NCBI GenBank assembly: GCA_947373155.1 | Contig: CANBWO010000007.1 | Span: 1 to 64,000, forward strand | Source: Microbacteriaceae bacterium | GTDB lineage: Bacteria; Actinomycetota; Actinomycetes; Actinomycetales; Microbacteriaceae | Direction: 5' to 3' | Length of the DNA: 64,000 bases | Shown: positions 24,153-38,366 of the stretch, in pieces | Layout: each line of letters opens with the position of its first letter | How positions within the stretch are numbered: position 1 is the stretch's first letter | Made by a program: the position numbers and the translations under genes | Notes under the pieces: model-generated | Told to the model about the DNA's origin: nothing | Databases searched by the model: none | Seen by the model: the letters and a program-made list of their open reading frames with translations, nothing else

Positions 24153-24328
24153 TTTTATTTATCTCTTTCATCGGCAGGTACGTGCCGAACGATCCGTAGT
24201 GAAAAGTGCTCATGGCTAGTGCCAAGAACCTATTTATTATCCCAGTAATGCTGCTTGGTATATCATTAGAAAGGTAACTAGGCCATAACTATCGGGTCAC
24301 GGTTTACCCCCTAATCATTGAGGAAGAC

Positions 24329-29932: not shown

Positions 29933-31545
29933 GTCACCTTGGCGTAAATAGGAATGGTCACACTGGAAAGTCGGGGGTCCTTGATTGCGCCAATTTGTTT
30001 GCTGCTGTCAACGGTTCCGGTGCTCAGGGTGTTGCCGTTGTTGCGGCAAAGTGAGCTGGTTCCGTTGTAGGTCTTGATGTAAACGCGCACCTTGTAGCTA
30101 TCGGTAGCGGCATCGTAGCTCGACGAATAAATATTGCTGCCGCTCAGAACGGTCTTGTCAATGATGCTGGATGGTGCGGACATTCCAGTGAGCGAAGCCA
30201 CGGTTGAACCCGTGCCTGGCAGGCTGTAAACATCTACATAGCAAGAGTTGCCATCGCCCGAAGGGAACTTGCTCAGGTAAGTGGTTCCGGTTGCGGTTGA
30301 AATGCAACGAACGGTAGTTGGCGCACTTTGGAAGTCCAGCTGTGGGCGGCTGAGTGCCGAATAGCTAGCCGCAAGGGTCACGGTTCCCTGAAGCTTGCTG
30401 CCGGTCACCAAGAAGCTAAGTGGCGACTGAGATCCGGTGGTAGAGCTCGCGGTGCTGAATCGGACACAGGCGCTGCGAGTGGTGCAGGTACCCGATGGCT
30501 TGGCCGAACCCGAGGTCAAGATCGAGTATGGTCCGTACGATGTGGTGTTTGCTGTAAAAGCCTCGTCGCCGTATCCGCCGGCAAGGGTAACGCGGATGTC
30601 CTTGCTGCCACAAGCCGAGGATGTTGCACCGTTCGAGGTGTCAATCCAGCCACAGGTGCTAAGTGCAGAAAGGCTAGTGTCTGATCCCGTGATGGTCAAA
30701 GCAGGGTAAACACGAATGGTTAGGTTATTGGCGGCCAACTTGGACCAGTAGTTGGTGTTTAGGTCGAAAGCCTTGATGGTGGTCTTGTAATCCACATAAG
30801 CCGCACCAGAGTTTGCCGCCGTAGTAGCGGTAACCGAAACAGTTGCCGATGAACCGTTAGCGTTAGGCGCCTCGGAAATGGTCACCTTGCCAGGAAGCGG
30901 GCTACCTGCGTCTACCCAGGTGAGGTCGCCAACAAAGGCGGTTGTTAGGTCAGGCAAGGTTGCGTTTACGTTAAAGGTCACCGATGAACCGGCCACGACC
31001 TCCACCAAACCGCTATTTGCTGGTACCACGCGGAAGTCGGTGGTCACCAGGCTGGTTCCGGTGGCGTTATCAAAGATGGTCTTGACTACCTGCGTCTGCT
31101 GCACAACTCCAGTTGGACTGCTGTACTGCAGGGTAATCATCTGGGTGTCGTCAGATGCGTTGTTCTTGGTGGAACAAGGTGCGTAAAGAGTTTGGTTCGC
31201 GGTGCTCACGTAAAGGGTGCGAGACGAGATCGCGATGATCTTGATTACGCCACCATTAATGTTTAGTTCGGTGCCAAAGTGGCTGGTGTAAGGGTCTGGG
31301 GTGTTCTTGTCGCAACCCAAAAAAACGATGTCGCGCTTGAGGCTGTCCGCAGCCTGCTGAAGCTGGTTGCTGGCGTAAATAACGGCAGCGGTCTTACGGA
31401 CGGTAAGGCTAGAGGAGTTGAGTCCGCCAAGCAACGACGAACCAACCACGCCAAGAATTACGATGGCGATGATTACTTCGAGTAGAGAGGAACCTGACTC
31501 TTGTTTTGCCTTTAGGCGCTTGATGATGCTGTTCAATTTAGCCAC
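29926..31545 (-). CDS. Prepilin-like protein with long Ig-like/repeat C-terminal region
   Basis: Likely GTG start at 31545 (VAKLNSIIKRLKAKQESGSSLLEVIIAIVILGVVGSSLLGG), overlapping the PilC stop. Confidence 0.8.
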   Translation of the reverse strand: MAKLNSIIKRLKAKQESGSSLLEVIIAIVILGVVGSSLLGGLNSSSLTVRKTAAVIYASNQLQQAADSLKRDIVFLGCDKNTPDPYTSHFGTELNINGGVIKIIAISSRTLYVSTANQTLYAPCSTKNNASDDTQMITLQYSSPTGVVQQTQVVKTIFDNATGTSLVTTDFRVVPANSGLVEVVAGSSVTFNVNATLPDLTTAFVGDLTWVDAGSPLPGKVTISEAPNANGSSATVSVTATTAANSGAAYVDYKTTIKAFDLNTNYWSKLAANNLTIRVYPALTITGSDTSLSALSTCGWIDTSNGATSSACGSKDIRVTLAGGYGDEAFTANTTSYGPYSILTSGSAKPSGTCTTRSACVRFSTASSTTGSQSPLSFLVTGSKLQGTVTLAASYSALSRPQLDFQSAPTTVRCISTATGTTYLSKFPSGDGNSCYVDVYSLPGTGSTVASLTGMSAPSSIIDKTVLSGSNIYSSSYDAATDSYKVRVYIKTYNGTSSLCRNNGNTLSTGTVDSSKQIGAIKDPRLSSVTIPIYAKVTC

Positions 31546-32806
31546 CCAAACTCTGCGAAGAGTAGATGCCATACATAGCCGAGACCAGAGCAACAGCCAC
31601 GAATCCGGTACCGCCACCGATAACCAAAAGCACGATCGGCTCGATCAGCGCGGTTAGGTTCTTGAGCTTGTAGTCAACTTCGCCGGTGTAGAAAACGGCT
31701 GCGTGCTTTAGCTGCTGGGTCAAAAGACCAGACTGCTCACCCACGCGGAAAATCTGAACAGCTTCCTGCGGAAACATCTTGGTGTCGGCCAGGGGCTCTG
31801 CTAGTCCGCGGCCGGCGATAACGCCATCGCGGGTTTTCTCAACAGCGATCTGGTAGGCACGGTTTCCCATTACCTCAGAGGAAAGCTTGAGTGCGTCTGT
31901 AAGAGGAACACCGGTGTCGTTTAGGCTTCCCAAAATGCGGCAGAAGCGCTCCAGGGCAACAAGCTGAAAAATCGAACCGAATACCGGAAGCTTCAGCATG
32001 AACGAATCGGTTGCTAGGCGTCCGCCATCGGTGCGGCGCCAAGCCTGGATTCCCACAACAGACAGCACAATAACCGCAACAATTGCTGGCCAGTAGGCTC
32101 CAACAAAGTTGGTTACCGCAAGCAAAGTTGCGGTGGCCGGTGGCAGTTCGGTGTCTAGTGACACAAAGAAGGTCTTGAACTTAGGCAGAACCACGGTGGA
32201 AAGCACGATGATCGCGGTTACACCCAAAAGCGAAAGCACGGCAGGGTAGTACATCGCTGATTTCACGGCACGCGCTGCTGCCAGGTCGCGCTCCAGGTAG
32301 ATTGCCAATGTATCGAAGGTGCCCGAAAGGTCTCCGGTACGCTCAGCAGCTCCGAGGATCGCCACATAGTATTCAGGGAAAACAGCCTTGTGCTCGCCCG
32401 CGGCCTTCGCCAGGGTCGCACCATCGCGAACGTCGTCAACCATGGATTCCAGAGTGGAAGCCATGAGCTTGCTCTTGGTGGATTCGCTAAGTAGCTGAAG
32501 CGCCTGAAGAATTGGGATTCCGGCAGAGGTAAAAGCAGAGAGCTGGCGGGTCACCTGAAGCAGAATTGCCCCGGTGACCTTCTCGCCAAGCTCCAAGGAC
32601 ATAAGTCCGTTGTACTCACCAATGGTGGTTACCTTGATGCCCTGCTCCATGGCCATCTGGCGAGCACGGCTTCGGCTGATTGCCTTTACCTGGGTGCTGA
32701 CCTTCTTGCCATCGGTGCTGGTACCAACGACGCGCCAGTTTTTAGGTGCAGCTGGCGCACCGGCCACTGGGGCCTTCTTGCCTAGTCCAAAGAAACTAGT
32801 TGACAT
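31538..32806 (-). CDS. pilC: Type II secretion/type IV pilus inner-membrane platform protein (PilC/GspF)
   Basis: LLQVTRQLSAFTSAGIPILQALQLL; ...VGEQSGLLTQQLKHAAVFYTGEVDYKLKNLTALIEPIVLLVIGGGTGFVAVALVSAMY. Confidence 0.92.
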   Translation of the reverse strand: MSTSFFGLGKKAPVAGAPAAPKNWRVVGTSTDGKKVSTQVKAISRSRARQMAMEQGIKVTTIGEYNGLMSLELGEKVTGAILLQVTRQLSAFTSAGIPILQALQLLSESTKSKLMASTLESMVDDVRDGATLAKAAGEHKAVFPEYYVAILGAAERTGDLSGTFDTLAIYLERDLAAARAVKSAMYYPAVLSLLGVTAIIVLSTVVLPKFKTFFVSLDTELPPATATLLAVTNFVGAYWPAIVAVIVLSVVGIQAWRRTDGGRLATDSFMLKLPVFGSIFQLVALERFCRILGSLNDTGVPLTDALKLSSEVMGNRAYQIAVEKTRDGVIAGRGLAEPLADTKMFPQEAVQIFRVGEQSGLLTQQLKHAAVFYTGEVDYKLKNLTALIEPIVLLVIGGGTGFVAVALVSAMYGIYSSQSLGG

Positions 32807-34238
32807 CCTTGGTTACCAATCGGGTTGCTTCTTGAATCGTGGTTTTGCCTTGTAGGGCAAGGTCGTAGGCTTCGTGCTCGAGGGTCTTTAGGCCCTCTTC
32901 TTCGGCCATACGGTAGAGGTCGGTTGGATCCGGACGAGTGGAGATTAGCTCTCGCATCTTGTCGCTGATCTCAAATACCTGGTAAACACCAACGCGGGAA
33001 CGGAAGCCCGAACCGCGGCAAACCGCACAACCCAAACCGCGACGAAGGGTGACCTTCTTTGGCAGTTCGAAATCGGCGAGCACTAGGCGCTCGGCAGCCG
33101 AAGCGGTGTAGTCCACTGCGCAGTAGTCGCAGACACGGCGAACCAGACGCTGGGAAACAACACCGCGAAGAGCGGCTGCAACCAGGTAAGGCTCGATGTC
33201 CATCTGGAACATACGGTAGACAACGCTCTGGGCGTCGGTGGCGTGAAGCGAGGTGATAACCAGACGGCCCGAAAGAGCTGCCTGAACCGAGATACGTGCG
33301 GTTTCCGCATCGCGGGTCTCACCAACCATGATTACGTCAGGGTCCTGACGAAGTAGGGCACGAAGCTGAGTGGCAAAGCCAATGCCAAGGTCTTCTACCA
33401 CTGGGATGTGGTTAATGCCCTTCATGATGTATTCCACTGGGTCTTCAATGGTGCTCACGTTGAGGTTCTCAACATCGAGGTCGTGAAGAGCCGAGTGAAG
33501 GGTGGTGGTCTTACCCGAGCCGGTTGGTCCTGCGGTAATGACCAGACCGTGCTGAGCGTGCACCATGCGGCGCACCTTACGAAGTTTGTTGTCGTCTAGG
33601 CCAAGTCCGGCTAGGTCGGTTAGACCACGCTTGGTGTCCAGTAGACGCATAACGGCTTTCTCGCCGTACAAAGTGGTAACGGTTGCAAGGCGGCAGTCAA
33701 TCTGGCGTCCCTCAACCTGGATGCTGAACTGGCCGTCCTGTGGGCGGCGACGCTCAACAATGTTGATCTTGGCAAGAACCTTTAGGCGGCTGATAAACGG
33801 CGATGACACGCTGTTTGGAAGGCGAACCATGGTCTCGAGCTGGCCATCGACGCGGGCACGAACCACAAGGTCCGACTCGGTTGGCTCAACGTGGATGTCG
33901 CTGGCGCGAAGCTTCACTGCGCGCTCCAGCACGTCGTTGACCAGGTCGGCCATCGGGCCTTCGCTGTCTACGGACGCGGTTGCGATTGGGTCGAAAGGCT
34001 TGTTGAATCCATCGCGGTAAATGGAGTCAAGTAGTTCAACCAGAAGGTTGTCCTCGACCGGAATCTGGGTGACCTGGGTACCCAATTTGTTTTGAATTTG
34101 CTCGCGTGCGGCTTCGCGAGTGGCTTCATCTTGGCTGGCTGGTAGACCAACTACAAGGACTTCACCATCCTGGCGTAATCCCAATGCTGACAGGCTCTTG
34201 GCCATATCTGCAGGAATCAGATCTGAAACGATATTCAC
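32796..34238 (-). CDS. pilB: Type IV pilus assembly ATPase PilB/GspE
   Basis: ASDIHVEPTESDLVVRARVDG; Walker A GPTGSGKTTTLHSAL; Walker B VIMVGETRDAETA; CxxC pairs in the C terminus. Confidence 0.95.
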   Translation of the reverse strand: MNIVSDLIPADMAKSLSALGLRQDGEVLVVGLPASQDEATREAAREQIQNKLGTQVTQIPVEDNLLVELLDSIYRDGFNKPFDPIATASVDSEGPMADLVNDVLERAVKLRASDIHVEPTESDLVVRARVDGQLETMVRLPNSVSSPFISRLKVLAKINIVERRRPQDGQFSIQVEGRQIDCRLATVTTLYGEKAVMRLLDTKRGLTDLAGLGLDDNKLRKVRRMVHAQHGLVITAGPTGSGKTTTLHSALHDLDVENLNVSTIEDPVEYIMKGINHIPVVEDLGIGFATQLRALLRQDPDVIMVGETRDAETARISVQAALSGRLVITSLHATDAQSVVYRMFQMDIEPYLVAAALRGVVSQRLVRRVCDYCAVDYTASAAERLVLADFELPKKVTLRRGLGCAVCRGSGFRSRVGVYQVFEISDKMRELISTRPDPTDLYRMAEEEGLKTLEHEAYDLALQGKTTIQEATRLVTKDVN

Positions 34239-34340
34239 TCTGTTTTCCTTCCCCTAGTTTGAACTGACTAGGTAATGAAAACACGATGAATATTGGGCTT
34301 CAGGCCCGCCGAGGGGATAGCACTACATTTTTTTTGACAG

Positions 34341-35159
34341 TTAAAACGACCAGGGTGCTAGCACTATATTTTGCAGAAAATCGCCACCCATAAAGCAAAT
34401 CCAGAAGCCCGCGAGCAAAAATGGCCCGAATGGAATAGCGCTCTTGGAATTGCCTTTTTTGGTAAGAAGAATGCCCAGCGAATAGAGCCCGCCAATCAAA
34501 AATGCCACCACAAAAGTTGCTATGGCCGATCGGTAGCTAAACATTCCGGCGGCAATACCAAGACTCACAACCAGTTTCACATCACCCAGCCCCATGCCGT
34601 TTTTACTGAAGACAGCGATGAGAAACAAAAGGAAAGCTGGAATCAAACCGCAGAGCATTGTCCACATGAACGCTACCCAGTCACCGGTTATGACTGCTTG
34701 GGTGACTGCAAAAATTGCGACAGCAATAGCCGCACTGTAGGTCAGCAGGTTGGGTAGTCGATAAAGCTTGATGTCGATCAAAAACAGCGGCACAGTGACA
34801 ATTGCGATTGCGGCGGTGGCTAGGTGAGCCATGCCAAGTTGGGGTGCCGGCCCCGGTGTAAAAGCCGAGACAAATAGCAGTGCGGTGGTGAATTCGATCA
34901 GCGGATATTTGGTGCTGATCTTTAGGCCGCAGCCTTTACACTTGCCACCCAGAAGGAAAAATCCCAGAATCGGAATATTTTCATTCCAACGCAGCTCACG
35001 CTTGCAGTTCGGGCATTGCGATCCGGGGGTAACAATGGACTTGCCATCTGGAACTCGAGATTCCAACACCGTGGCAAAAGAACCAAAACAAGCACCCAAA
35101 ACCACAAGCGTTACCCAGGTGAGCGCTGATCCGAAGGCCGTTAGTTGTTCGCTGTTCAA
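34341..35159 (-). CDS. pilD: Prepilin peptidase (A24)
   Basis: GACFGSFATVLESRVPDGKS; CPNCKRELRWNENIPILGFFLLGGKCKGCG; NGMGLGDVKLVVSLG catalytic GxGD-type motif. Confidence 0.93.
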   Translation of the reverse strand: MNSEQLTAFGSALTWVTLVVLGACFGSFATVLESRVPDGKSIVTPGSQCPNCKRELRWNENIPILGFFLLGGKCKGCGLKISTKYPLIEFTTALLFVSAFTPGPAPQLGMAHLATAAIAIVTVPLFLIDIKLYRLPNLLTYSAAIAVAIFAVTQAVITGDWVAFMWTMLCGLIPAFLLFLIAVFSKNGMGLGDVKLVVSLGIAAGMFSYRSAIATFVVAFLIGGLYSLGILLTKKGNSKSAIPFGPFLLAGFWICFMGGDFLQNIVLAPWSF

Positions 35160-35252
35160 AATCTCTGACCCTCACCGGTAAAACGACTTGTTTCGTTAAA
35201 AAGAAGTGCGGTTGCAATCCTATTGGACTGCAACCGCACTCAAAAGTTGCGA

Positions 35253-35678
35253 CTAAGCGCCAGCCTTGCAAGCGGTTGCGTCGAAGGTTCCAGCAACAAC
35301 TGGGGTGCCTGCAACGGAGATGCTCTTGGTGGTTGCGTTGTAGGTTGCCTTCAAGGTGTAGTCAGCCTTGTCTGCAAGTGCCTTCATGTAGTTAGGAACA
35401 AGAAGTGTGGTTAGCTCTGCATCGGTGTAGTCCAGAGGAGCAGAGGTGTCTGCAGGAACTGCAGGAGTCGAGTTCTGCGATACGTAGCTGTCGAATGCGT
35501 TTACGTAGGTGAGAGCAGATGCGGAACATGCCTTTACGATCGCGGTAGCGCGTGCGTTGTTAACGGCAACAACGGCGATAACGGACAGGATGCCCAGGAT
35601 AAGTACTACTACTAGAAGTTCGATAAGAGTGAAACCCTTGTCTGAGCTCCCCTTTAGCTGCTTGCGGATTGAGTTCAC
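35253..35678 (-). CDS. Type IV major pilin-like prepilin
   Basis: Likely GTG start at 35678; GFTLIELLVVVLILGILSVIAVVAVNNARA. Confidence 0.9.
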   Translation of the reverse strand: MNSIRKQLKGSSDKGFTLIELLVVVLILGILSVIAVVAVNNARATAIVKACSASALTYVNAFDSYVSQNSTPAVPADTSAPLDYTDAELTTLLVPNYMKALADKADYTLKATYNATTKSISVAGTPVVAGTFDATACKAGA

Positions 35679-35855
35679 GGTATTAGCCTTTTCTGTGAAA
35701 TAGATTGGTGTCTTTCTGACAATCACAAGATTAGGAACGTGTTTGCTCTGGCTCTTTCTAACAAAGTAGCAGCCGAACATTTGTGCAAAAAATGGCTAAA
35801 TCTGCCCTTATGTCAGCGTAATTCAGCGAGAAAACCGATTCCGCAGTCGTGCCAG

Positions 35856-35916: not shown

Positions 35917-37482
35917 TCACAGGTAGTTAGCCACTGTAGTTTTTTTTACTTCGTAGTCCAAGCATGCCTGAATATGTGTCAAAATCTTAGTTCTTGCCTG
36001 GATTTGGTCGTCAGCCTTGGAAATTTTGACCTTAAATGCCTCTGTGTAACTCCCGCTGGTCCAAGCCAATCTAGAAACCCATCTTGCTTCCCAGGTCCCG
36101 ACCCAAGTGTTCGATCTACCAGATTTCTGTAAGTGAAGAAAGCGGTATTCCCCGTCTATTCGAACCTGCATTTGAATTGCGTCAAGGTAAACGTTGACAA
36201 CCAGCAACTTCCATTGCGATTTCGCTGCAATACTAAGCAGGCCCTTCCTCAGCGTCTGAAAAGTCTGCAGTTCTGCGAACTCAAATCCATCGATACTGCC
36301 TATTGCCAAAGAGCTGTTCAAAATGCCTTGCATTTTGTCTATCCTGGGTTGAGCCCATCCTCTATCTACCTCAAGTGCCCAGAGCAGTTTGCCTGTTAAT
36401 CGGTTGATTAGGAATCCAGGTGACTGAGCTGAGGTATGCGCTGCATGCTTTTCTAGTCCGTACTTGTTCAGAGCCCATATCATTTGGTCGATGTTTGTAC
36501 GCACTTGTTTGGTAAGGCGTATGCGCCCCTCACCGACGACTACACCCAAAACAAGCTTGCGTGCGCCAGGAGGGATGATTTTTGTTTTCCGTGAGTTATG
36601 TTGGAATCCAAATTTTTCCAACAGGCGAATTGAGGAGTGCAGGAGACGCTCTGCCTTGCCACGGTCGAATTCGTCTCTGGAGCTTAGGACTATGTCGTCT
36701 GCATAGCGAGTGTAAGTGAGATTATTGCGCTTTGCGAACTCGCTAAATCTCACATCCAGCGGGTAGCAGACCAAGTTGGATATAGCTCCACTAGTAGGCA
36801 TCCCCTGCGGCAAGAACCCCAATTTGTTGGGGTTTCTTCGAAATCTAGAACCTTTTTTTGCTGGCGCAGACCCTTTGTATTTTTCTGGTAGCCAATCCAC
36901 AGGCTCCGAGACCAACCTTGTGAGCAACCTCGCTAGGTAAAAGGCTCTATAACGATTCGCACCAGCGTTTTGAAAAGCCCAGAACACCATTCTTTCGTCT
37001 ATGCCGTGAAAGAAATCTTTGATATCCATTTTGATGATCCAGACAGCGTTCTGGTGCTGCTTTGAGCATTGGACGGCGGATTTTCCTAAGAGATATGCAT
37101 ATGCGTTTTCATGGTAGAGCTGTGGTTCATTTAGGTGTTCACGAAGGAACCATGAGGCATACCCACTTAGTTCCCTTGCGGGGTTCGACAAATAGCGAGT
37201 TTCCCCGTTTGCTTTGGGTACTTGAATCGTCTTGTAAGGGTCGATTTCTCGAGTGAGAGTCGCATGGTAGAACTTCATTTTTGCTGAGATGCCCGACGAG
37301 TACGCATCTTTAAACTGCTTTAATCGAACATCGAAGGTGTTTATCTCTGAAAACTTAGGTGTTTCAACTCTGAAAAATGGGTTTGGAACCTTGGGCTTTG
37401 ATAAAGCTTCGACTGGCACAGCGTTTGACGAGCCAGACGGAACCTGGCTGAGAATGTGGCTTTTTCTAAAAAACTTGAACAT
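35917..37482 (-). CDS. Retron-type reverse transcriptase (candidate)
   Basis: RT motifs: IQVPKANGETRYLSNP, IIKMDIKDFFHGID, LGFLPQGMPTSGAISNLVCYPLD, LTYTRYADDIVLSS (YADD at 36694-36705), HNSRKTKIIPPGARKLVLGVVVG; about 200-aa C-terminal part. Confidence 0.88.
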   Translation of the reverse strand: MFKFFRKSHILSQVPSGSSNAVPVEALSKPKVPNPFFRVETPKFSEINTFDVRLKQFKDAYSSGISAKMKFYHATLTREIDPYKTIQVPKANGETRYLSNPARELSGYASWFLREHLNEPQLYHENAYAYLLGKSAVQCSKQHQNAVWIIKMDIKDFFHGIDERMVFWAFQNAGANRYRAFYLARLLTRLVSEPVDWLPEKYKGSAPAKKGSRFRRNPNKLGFLPQGMPTSGAISNLVCYPLDVRFSEFAKRNNLTYTRYADDIVLSSRDEFDRGKAERLLHSSIRLLEKFGFQHNSRKTKIIPPGARKLVLGVVVGEGRIRLTKQVRTNIDQMIWALNKYGLEKHAAHTSAQSPGFLINRLTGKLLWALEVDRGWAQPRIDKMQGILNSSLAIGSIDGFEFAELQTFQTLRKGLLSIAAKSQWKLLVVNVYLDAIQMQVRIDGEYRFLHLQKSGRSNTWVGTWEARWVSRLAWTSGSYTEAFKVKISKADDQIQARTKILTHIQACLDYEVKKTTVANYL

Positions 37483-37499: not shown

Positions 37500-37625
37500 G
37501 TTAGAGGGGTGCATGCTTTGAAATCCGTCCCCAAAGCGAGTAATCGCTACGAAGTGGAAACACCAACCTCAGGCATAAGCCAAGGGTGCGGATTAAATCC
37601 GCACTTTGCCAAGCACCCCTCCAAC
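37500..37625 (-). ncRNA. Candidate retron-like msr-msd ncRNA (about 126 nt)
   Basis: Terminal 13-bp inverted repeat with one G.U (37613-37625 / 37500-37512: GTTGGAGGGGTGC ... GCACCCCTCTAAC on the minus strand); internal hairpins 37586-37604 (8 bp, 3-nt loop) and 37535-37548 (5 bp); immediately upstream of the RT start. Confidence 0.55.
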
Positions 37626-37632
37626 TATTCTC

Positions 37633-37661
37633 AAAGTACCAGAACGTGGTCGTGCACTCAA
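37633..37661 (-). promoter_or_regulatory. Putative sigma70-like promoter for the ncRNA/RT transcript
   Basis: Minus strand TTGAGT-N17-TACTTT; predicted +1 about 37626, right at the outer end of the inverted repeat. Confidence 0.5.
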
Positions 37662-37767: not shown

Positions 37768-38366
37768 CTTGACCTGGCAAGTCTTAATCTCGCGACAAAG
37801 CACTGCCACTTGCCATGTGTGCATTGAGGCATGCTTGCTGCTTTCCAGCGATTCCGAAGATGTCACTTAGTGCATACCTGATGATCGATTTTCTTTAAAG
37901 TCGTATCTTAGGAAAAACTGCACTCGACTTAAAACGATCGCCAAAGTTTTTGATCGTTTGTTTTGCTTTGTGTTGGCAGTGACTAAGAACGGGCGCCCTA
38001 CGGCATTCGGAATTGCTGGGAAGGCTTACGCCTTCAAATAATTATGCTTTCTCCGAATTCTCCATTCCGAGAGCTAGCACTGGAAAAAGATGTATTTTCA
38101 GTCGAGAAAGAATAGTCTCAACCCAAACATTTTTTATGTGGCAGGCGTCCGCTAGCGACTAATAAACTATATGATTTGAGAAAAACGGACGAAATAGCCA
38201 AATCGCAGGAAGACATTGCTTTTAAACCACCAACACTTGGGGGCACAAATCGGGGGCTCTATGGAAAGGTAATTGGTTTGACTGTCGCAATAATTTTTGA
38301 CCTAGAAATGGAGGTCCGGTTGGGCAAGTGTTCTCAACGTGAAGACATTTCCCACCTTGAGAGCCT

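Follow-up and report, generated by a model that had tools for sequence, protein, structure and literature searches.

The locus examined here, in a 64-kb window (the whole stretch of DNA analysed), raises the question of whether an inverted repeat lying directly upstream of a reverse transcriptase (RT) gene frames the RNA of a retron and, if so, what kind of retron it is. What a retron RT recognises is the ncRNA fold enclosed by a1 and a2, and its synthesis begins at the 2'-OH of a conserved guanosine next to the inverted repeats (PMC8989520). Our analyses led to the conclusion that the segment at 37500-37625 on the minus strand is probably the msr-msd RNA of a compact, effectively single-gene, III-A-related retron, in which the extra C-terminal domain carried by the RT would stand in for the effector or dock one. 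The gene and its C-terminal part are as follows.

35917-37482, minus strand: retron-type reverse transcriptase, 521 aa, YADD intact (PADLOC RT_III-A, Pfam RVT_1, tree and fold matches)
35917-36348, minus strand: orphan C-terminal domain of the RT, aa 379-521 plus stop (no relative found; predicted helix, five strands and helix)

Family searches, structure searches and phylogeny concurred in the placement of the RT. Its best PADLOC family was RT_III-A (E 2.7e-98), it matched Pfam RVT_1, and PDB sequence and fold searches returned retron RTs on top, with fold matches to Ec86, Eco7 and Eco2. A 99-RT tree placed it inside the III-A branch (clade support 99/98) as a lone long branch with a length of 1.48. 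The same 99/98 clade also holds III-A RTs linked to a phosphoribosyltransferase (PRTase) and a clade of actinobacterial RTs with metallopeptidase-like fusions, the order of the three not being settled by the tree. The nearest relatives were only 37-38% identical; the 521-codon frame is open, and the residues that are invariant among 48 RTs, including YADD, are all kept. The protein is a retron-clade enzyme with an intact catalytic motif, and it belongs to the III-A branch.

The region upstream of this gene contains the following elements.

37500-37625, minus strand: candidate retron ncRNA (msr-msd), 126 nt (13-bp closing arms, fold z of -4.9, position and plan as in III-A relatives, match to the covariance model R2)
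37613-37625, minus strand: a1 arm GTTGGAGGGGTGC, read in the sequence, with a start resembling the a1 of relatives, e.g. GTTGAGGGGGCCAC in locus L035
37500-37512, minus strand: a2 arm GCACCCCTCTAAC, pairing with a1 (the relatives' ends are CCCTCAAC or CCCTCAGC)
37586-37604, minus strand: first msr hairpin, GTGCGGAT-TTA-ATCCGCAC, 8 bp (sequence and minimum-energy fold)
37567-37585, minus strand: second msr hairpin, CCTTGGC-TTAT-GCCTGAGG (fold)
37535-37548, minus strand: 5-bp hairpin AGCGA-TTAC-TCGCT, inside the putative msd template (sequence and minimum-energy fold)
37633-37661, minus strand: weak promoter-like site TTGAGT-N17-TACTTT (in the sequence)

Inspection of the sequence identified 12 Watson-Crick pairs and one G.U pair between the two arms, so that the 13-bp inverted repeat closing 126 nt reads just as the first-pass annotation had described it; the RT start codon (37482) lies 17 nt downstream of the a2 arm, one less than the approximate 18 nt given there. 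Folding of the minus-strand RNA, which the same annotation had proposed as a check, yielded a stable structure: the minimum-energy fold of a 161-nt stretch had -65.5 kcal/mol and a z of -4.9, and none of 200 shuffles was equally stable. In the predicted fold the a1 and a2 arms close the whole structure, and both of the hairpins named previously (37604-37586, 8 bp; 37548-37535, 5 bp) are included, while the second msr hairpin, directly after the first, had been overlooked. Comparable inverted repeats (13 bp, at most one G.U pair, span 60-250) occur at five places on the two strands of the window, and when the 230 nt preceding the RT were dinucleotide-shuffled, one appeared in only 1 of 3,000 shuffles, which indicates that the a1/a2 repeat is not due to chance. 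The promoter proposed previously, TTGAGT-N17-TACTTT, is present at 37661-37633, and its TACTTT fits the loose TANNNT, but it is weak, with 4 + 3 = 7 of the 12 consensus bases, and was not reported by the promoter scan.

Screening with retron covariance models, also proposed previously, was answered in the negative by Rfam, which gave no retron RNA match and no intron RNA in the window. The scan identified an msiK RNA (RF01747) above the gathering score at 24157-24214 on the minus strand. An integron attC site was considered and rejected: the GTT start and AAC end of the arms sit at the outer ends, and in attC sites this order is reversed.

The RNA was compared with that of III-A relatives, in which the commonest layout is a PRTase_III-A gene, then about 200 nt, then the RT. 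Directly before the RT, the relatives have an RNA of ~215 nt whose long arms are complementary to each other and usually read GTTGAGGG... and ...CCCTCAAC. An alignment anchored on (C/T)TAG and on (A/G)AAG(G)TA(A/G) near the RT start contained 26 clean members of 206-262 nt, with the presumed branch point at (C/T)TA|G, where TAG is invariant in all 26, and with (A/G)AAG just before a2. Their a1/a2 helix comprises 13 outer and six inner pairs; 17 of these 19 pairs were changed on both sides, and the other two were invariant. The covariation score of the whole structure was 0.363, versus 0.193 +/- 0.011 in shuffles, a control that is subject to a tree-relatedness caveat, and at most 0.175 in slid controls, which preserve relatedness. 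Individual folds of the relatives displayed three msr hairpins. An Rfam scan of four relatives did not recognise the upstream RNA at the gathering level; the 26-member alignment and its covariation offer a testable model for an RNA unrecognised by Rfam in the relatives scanned.

The RNA in the window follows the plan GTTGGAGGGG...TTG|G...TCAAAG|CAT...CCCCTCTAAC, with the same order of parts as in the relatives. Side by side with the L035 RNA, GTTGAGGGGGCCAC...CTA|G...GAAG|TAG...GTGGTCTCCTCAAC, it reads GTTGGAGGGGTGC-TTG|G...TCAAAG|CAT-GCACCCCTCTAAC. The outer arm start GTTG.AGG is common to this RNA and the relatives, and AAAG stands beside the second arm at the exact place of the family (A/G)AAG. 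Three further elements can be proposed from this comparison.

37609, minus strand: putative branching guanosine (TTG|G), equivalent to the G of (C/T)TA|G that is invariant in the 26 relatives
37516-37519, minus strand: AAAG, putative template start, directly 5' of the inner a2 strand, where relatives have (A/G)AAG
37516-37566, minus strand: putative msd template, about 50 nt, between the last msr hairpin and AAAG (analogy with relatives)

G37609 is the first base after the a1/a2 helix if the UG/CA pairs past a U.U mismatch extend that helix; its context is TTGG, not the family (C/T)TAG. The branch-adjacent pairs, U-A and A-U in the family, are U-A and G-C here, the third one out being the U.U mismatch, and the double change from A-U to G-C suggests that the last pair beside the branch position has been kept.

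R2, a covariance model built from the anchored relatives with the window left out, matched 37624-37500 over the full length of the model, but weakly (6.8 bits, rank 5 and E 0.5 in 64 kb). Confined to the 884-nt intergenic stretch, the match had an E of 0.0069, and an unrelated place in that stretch scored 5.8 bits. Other held-out relatives scored 15-95 bits, so that the RNA in the window is clearly more divergent or reduced; it has 126 nt versus 206-262 nt in the aligned relatives, and two msr hairpins versus three. At the sequence level the match is compatible with homology to III-A RNA, short of proof. Of the covariation called for in the first-pass annotation, the part concerning the family was borne out, since the a1/a2 helix covaries in the 26 relatives, whereas for the RNA in the window no close homologue was found. 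The proposal that an a1/a2-framed RNA preceding an RT fits a retron ncRNA is supported by the family-wide RNA at the same place, and 37500-37625 is best read as a retron RNA.

The partner protein of type III-A was not detected. PRTase_III-A had no match at the locus or in the whole assembly, which is about 91% complete and represents the small genome (1.57 Mb) of an actinobacterium. No neighbouring effector gene was found beside the RT at the locus, where the neighbours are a type IV pilus operon, a tRNA, MsrB and a protein of 296 aa that had no Pfam match. Lacking the PRTase effector with its winged-helix part, the locus should not be filed as type III-A; with that effector absent, the system consists of one gene and one RNA, and its accurate label is "III-A-related, untyped, probably single-gene". 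With the usual partner toxin gene missing and an RT whose end-piece is unlike known proteins, it looks like a variant, not described before, of a defence system that is already known. The first-pass suggestion of an undescribed retron-like system thus holds for a III-A-related lineage without PRTase and with an orphan C-terminal domain, but not for a new kind of retroelement.

The operon directly downstream of the RT (31538-35780) is a type IV pilus/T2SS-like operon with T2SSF, T2SSE, a prepilin peptidase and a pilin. The prepilin peptidase had only weak matches (about 31-33% identity) in ten other genomes of the genus, suggesting that the pilus region may be an accessory island and rendering synteny in the genus uninformative. 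Farther upstream, at a distance of 220 nt from the ncRNA, there is a second large imperfect inverted repeat of about 188 nt (37839-38026). Its arms pair over about 19 bp and leave a single G bulged (GCTTTCC-AGCGATTCCGAA / TTCGGAATTGCTGGGAAGGC); it folds unusually well on both strands (z of -4.5 on the plus and -3.9 on the minus strand), and had no Rfam, genus, phage, plasmid or R2 match.

The only candidate effector at the locus is the C-terminal domain of the RT, a gain of about 130 residues. No relative of this domain was found in 80 III-A-type loci, 396 genomes of the order, viral contigs, Pfam, PHROGs or PDB; the order-level matches (E 0.002-0.1) were short and mostly to unrelated long frames or stop-containing frames. 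No similarity was found to the PRTase or to the metallopeptidase that is fused to other RTs of the branch. Its structure was predicted twice, from the single sequence (pLDDT 66) and within the full protein with 48 rows (about 70-75 in the C-terminal part); the two predictions agreed on a helix, five strands and a long helix, and both contained an extra compact domain. Foldseek of the single-sequence model against PDB returned nothing below 0.001. A match to one viral protein (6e-4, TM 0.45) was set aside as not interpretable.

The C-terminal domain would most likely replace the PRTase effector or dock an effector encoded elsewhere. A role as RNA-binding support is nearly as plausible for the domain. 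The likeliest alternative, though less probable than not, is that the domain is an RNA-binding or dimerisation add-on offsetting the shortened RNA, in a retron with no toxin or with an unlinked one. The RNA is about 90 nt shorter than those of relatives while the protein gained about 130 residues, and the domain has no catalytic signature, Pfam match or PDB match, points that favour such an add-on. RTs of the same branch, however, carry a fused enzymatic domain, metallopeptidase-like with HELGH, at this very end, which makes effector fusion at the RT C-terminus an existing habit of the III-A branch.

The absence of a PRTase from the assembly could also mean that the RT and RNA are relics of a decayed III-A retron on their way out, and the long RT branch (1.48), the truncated RNA and the occurrence of the RT in only 1 of 68 genomes of the genus point in the same direction. 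We consider decay improbable, because the 521-codon frame is open with YADD and the other invariant residues in place, the a1/a2 helix is unbroken over 13 bp, and a 1.57-Mb genome would be expected to shed dead genes quickly. It is slightly more doubtful still that the inverted repeat is an unrelated structure in the RT leader, such as a regulatory hairpin or a mobile-element remnant, with the RT using another template. The weak R2 score and the second, unexplained inverted repeat 220 nt further upstream would suit such an explanation, but the element agrees with the family RNA in its position, in its arm sequence and in where AAAG is placed, and no similar DNA was found in the genus, phages or plasmids, unlike what a mobile element would lead one to expect. 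That the enzyme is the RT of a group II intron, or of a DRT (UG/Abi) system having an ncRNA of its own, can practically be dismissed, as the cross-matches to the group II RT model (55.6 bits, cut-off 300) and the Drt2 model (41.2 bits, cut-off 390) are far below what those classes demand, whereas retron families match at E 1e-30 to 1e-98, Rfam found no intron RNA and the Pfam scan of the RT found no maturase domain.

For the preferred reading, a compact III-A-related retron, we infer RT-DNA production, the branching guanosine, the template limits, a function in defence and the effector role of the C-terminal domain along the following lines. The RNA would be transcribed together with the RT, just ahead of it; the a1/a2 helix would close the RNA, and the RT would bind the two msr hairpins. 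Judging from position, reverse transcription would be primed by the 2'-OH of G37609 at the helix end. The template may extend from AAAG (37519-37516) towards 37566, which would give a short RT-DNA of about 50 nt. The complex of RT, RNA and DNA would keep the C-terminal domain inactive until a phage disturbs it. In retrons, the RT together with its ncRNA and RT-DNA keeps a toxic effector sequestered until a phage infects (PMC12548924).

A stronger claim, which we regard as possible at somewhat less than an even chance, is that the locus represents a new type of single-gene retron. Its lineage would be a deep sister of III-A that exchanged the PRTase for a small, new, fused effector domain without known relatives, and its RNA would be among the shortest retron RNAs. 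Effector exchange is the main way in which retron types arise. If a III-A-related RT has lost its PRTase and gained an orphan fused domain, this would be another such exchange, in a genome of ~1.6 Mb with few spare genes. An RNA of 126 nt and two msr hairpins would also set the lower bound on the requirements of this RT branch and would be useful for compact RT-DNA tools.

Among known systems, type III-A retrons (RT, PRTase with winged-helix part, and ncRNA) share with the window the RT family and branch, and also the ncRNA directly upstream of the RT, the a1/a2 helix, the arm start GTTG(G)AGG and (A/G)AAG beside a2. The window differs from them by having no PRTase genome-wide, an ncRNA of 126 rather than about 215 nt, TTGG in place of (C/T)TAG, and the orphan C-terminal domain. 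Replacement of the PRTase is documented in Retron-Sda1 of Sphingobacterium daejeonense (PMC12548924), which, like the window, combines a III-A1-like RT and ncRNA with no PRTase/WH effector; HipA-like and DUF3037 genes adjoin it, whereas the RT in the window has no such neighbour and its novelty is fused to the RT. Five loci in or near the III-A branch (L023, L061, L067, L077 and L097) had no nearby PRTase according to a profile from four Microbacteriaceae PRTases; it is possible that they represent further effector exchanges or have divergent PRTases.

The metallopeptidase-fused RTs of the III-A branch resemble the window in having no separate PRTase, an extra C-terminal domain, the same tree branch and, in L054, L062 and L064, their own upstream RNA. 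Metallopeptidase-like fusions without PRTase were observed in 11 actinobacterial loci, mostly from Streptomyces (L049, L052, L054, L059, L062, L064, L065, L066, L068, L090 and L091). The fused domain has HELGH or HELAH motifs and a weak Pfam M78 ImmA/IrrE match, these RTs are covered by the PADLOC model PDLC02944 (597 positions), and the upstream RNA of L054, L062 and L064 has the arms GCAGTCGGC...CTCA|G and AAGG|TGAG...GCTGC. At about 330 aa, that domain differs from the one of about 130 aa in the window, to which it has no similarity. The single-gene fused-effector retrons (I-C with Toprim, VII-A1 with DUF3800, XI with a protease and XII with TIR) belong to other RT branches, and the domain in the window is unrelated to theirs by family search, but they share with the window the arrangement of an RT and an additional C-terminal domain in one gene.
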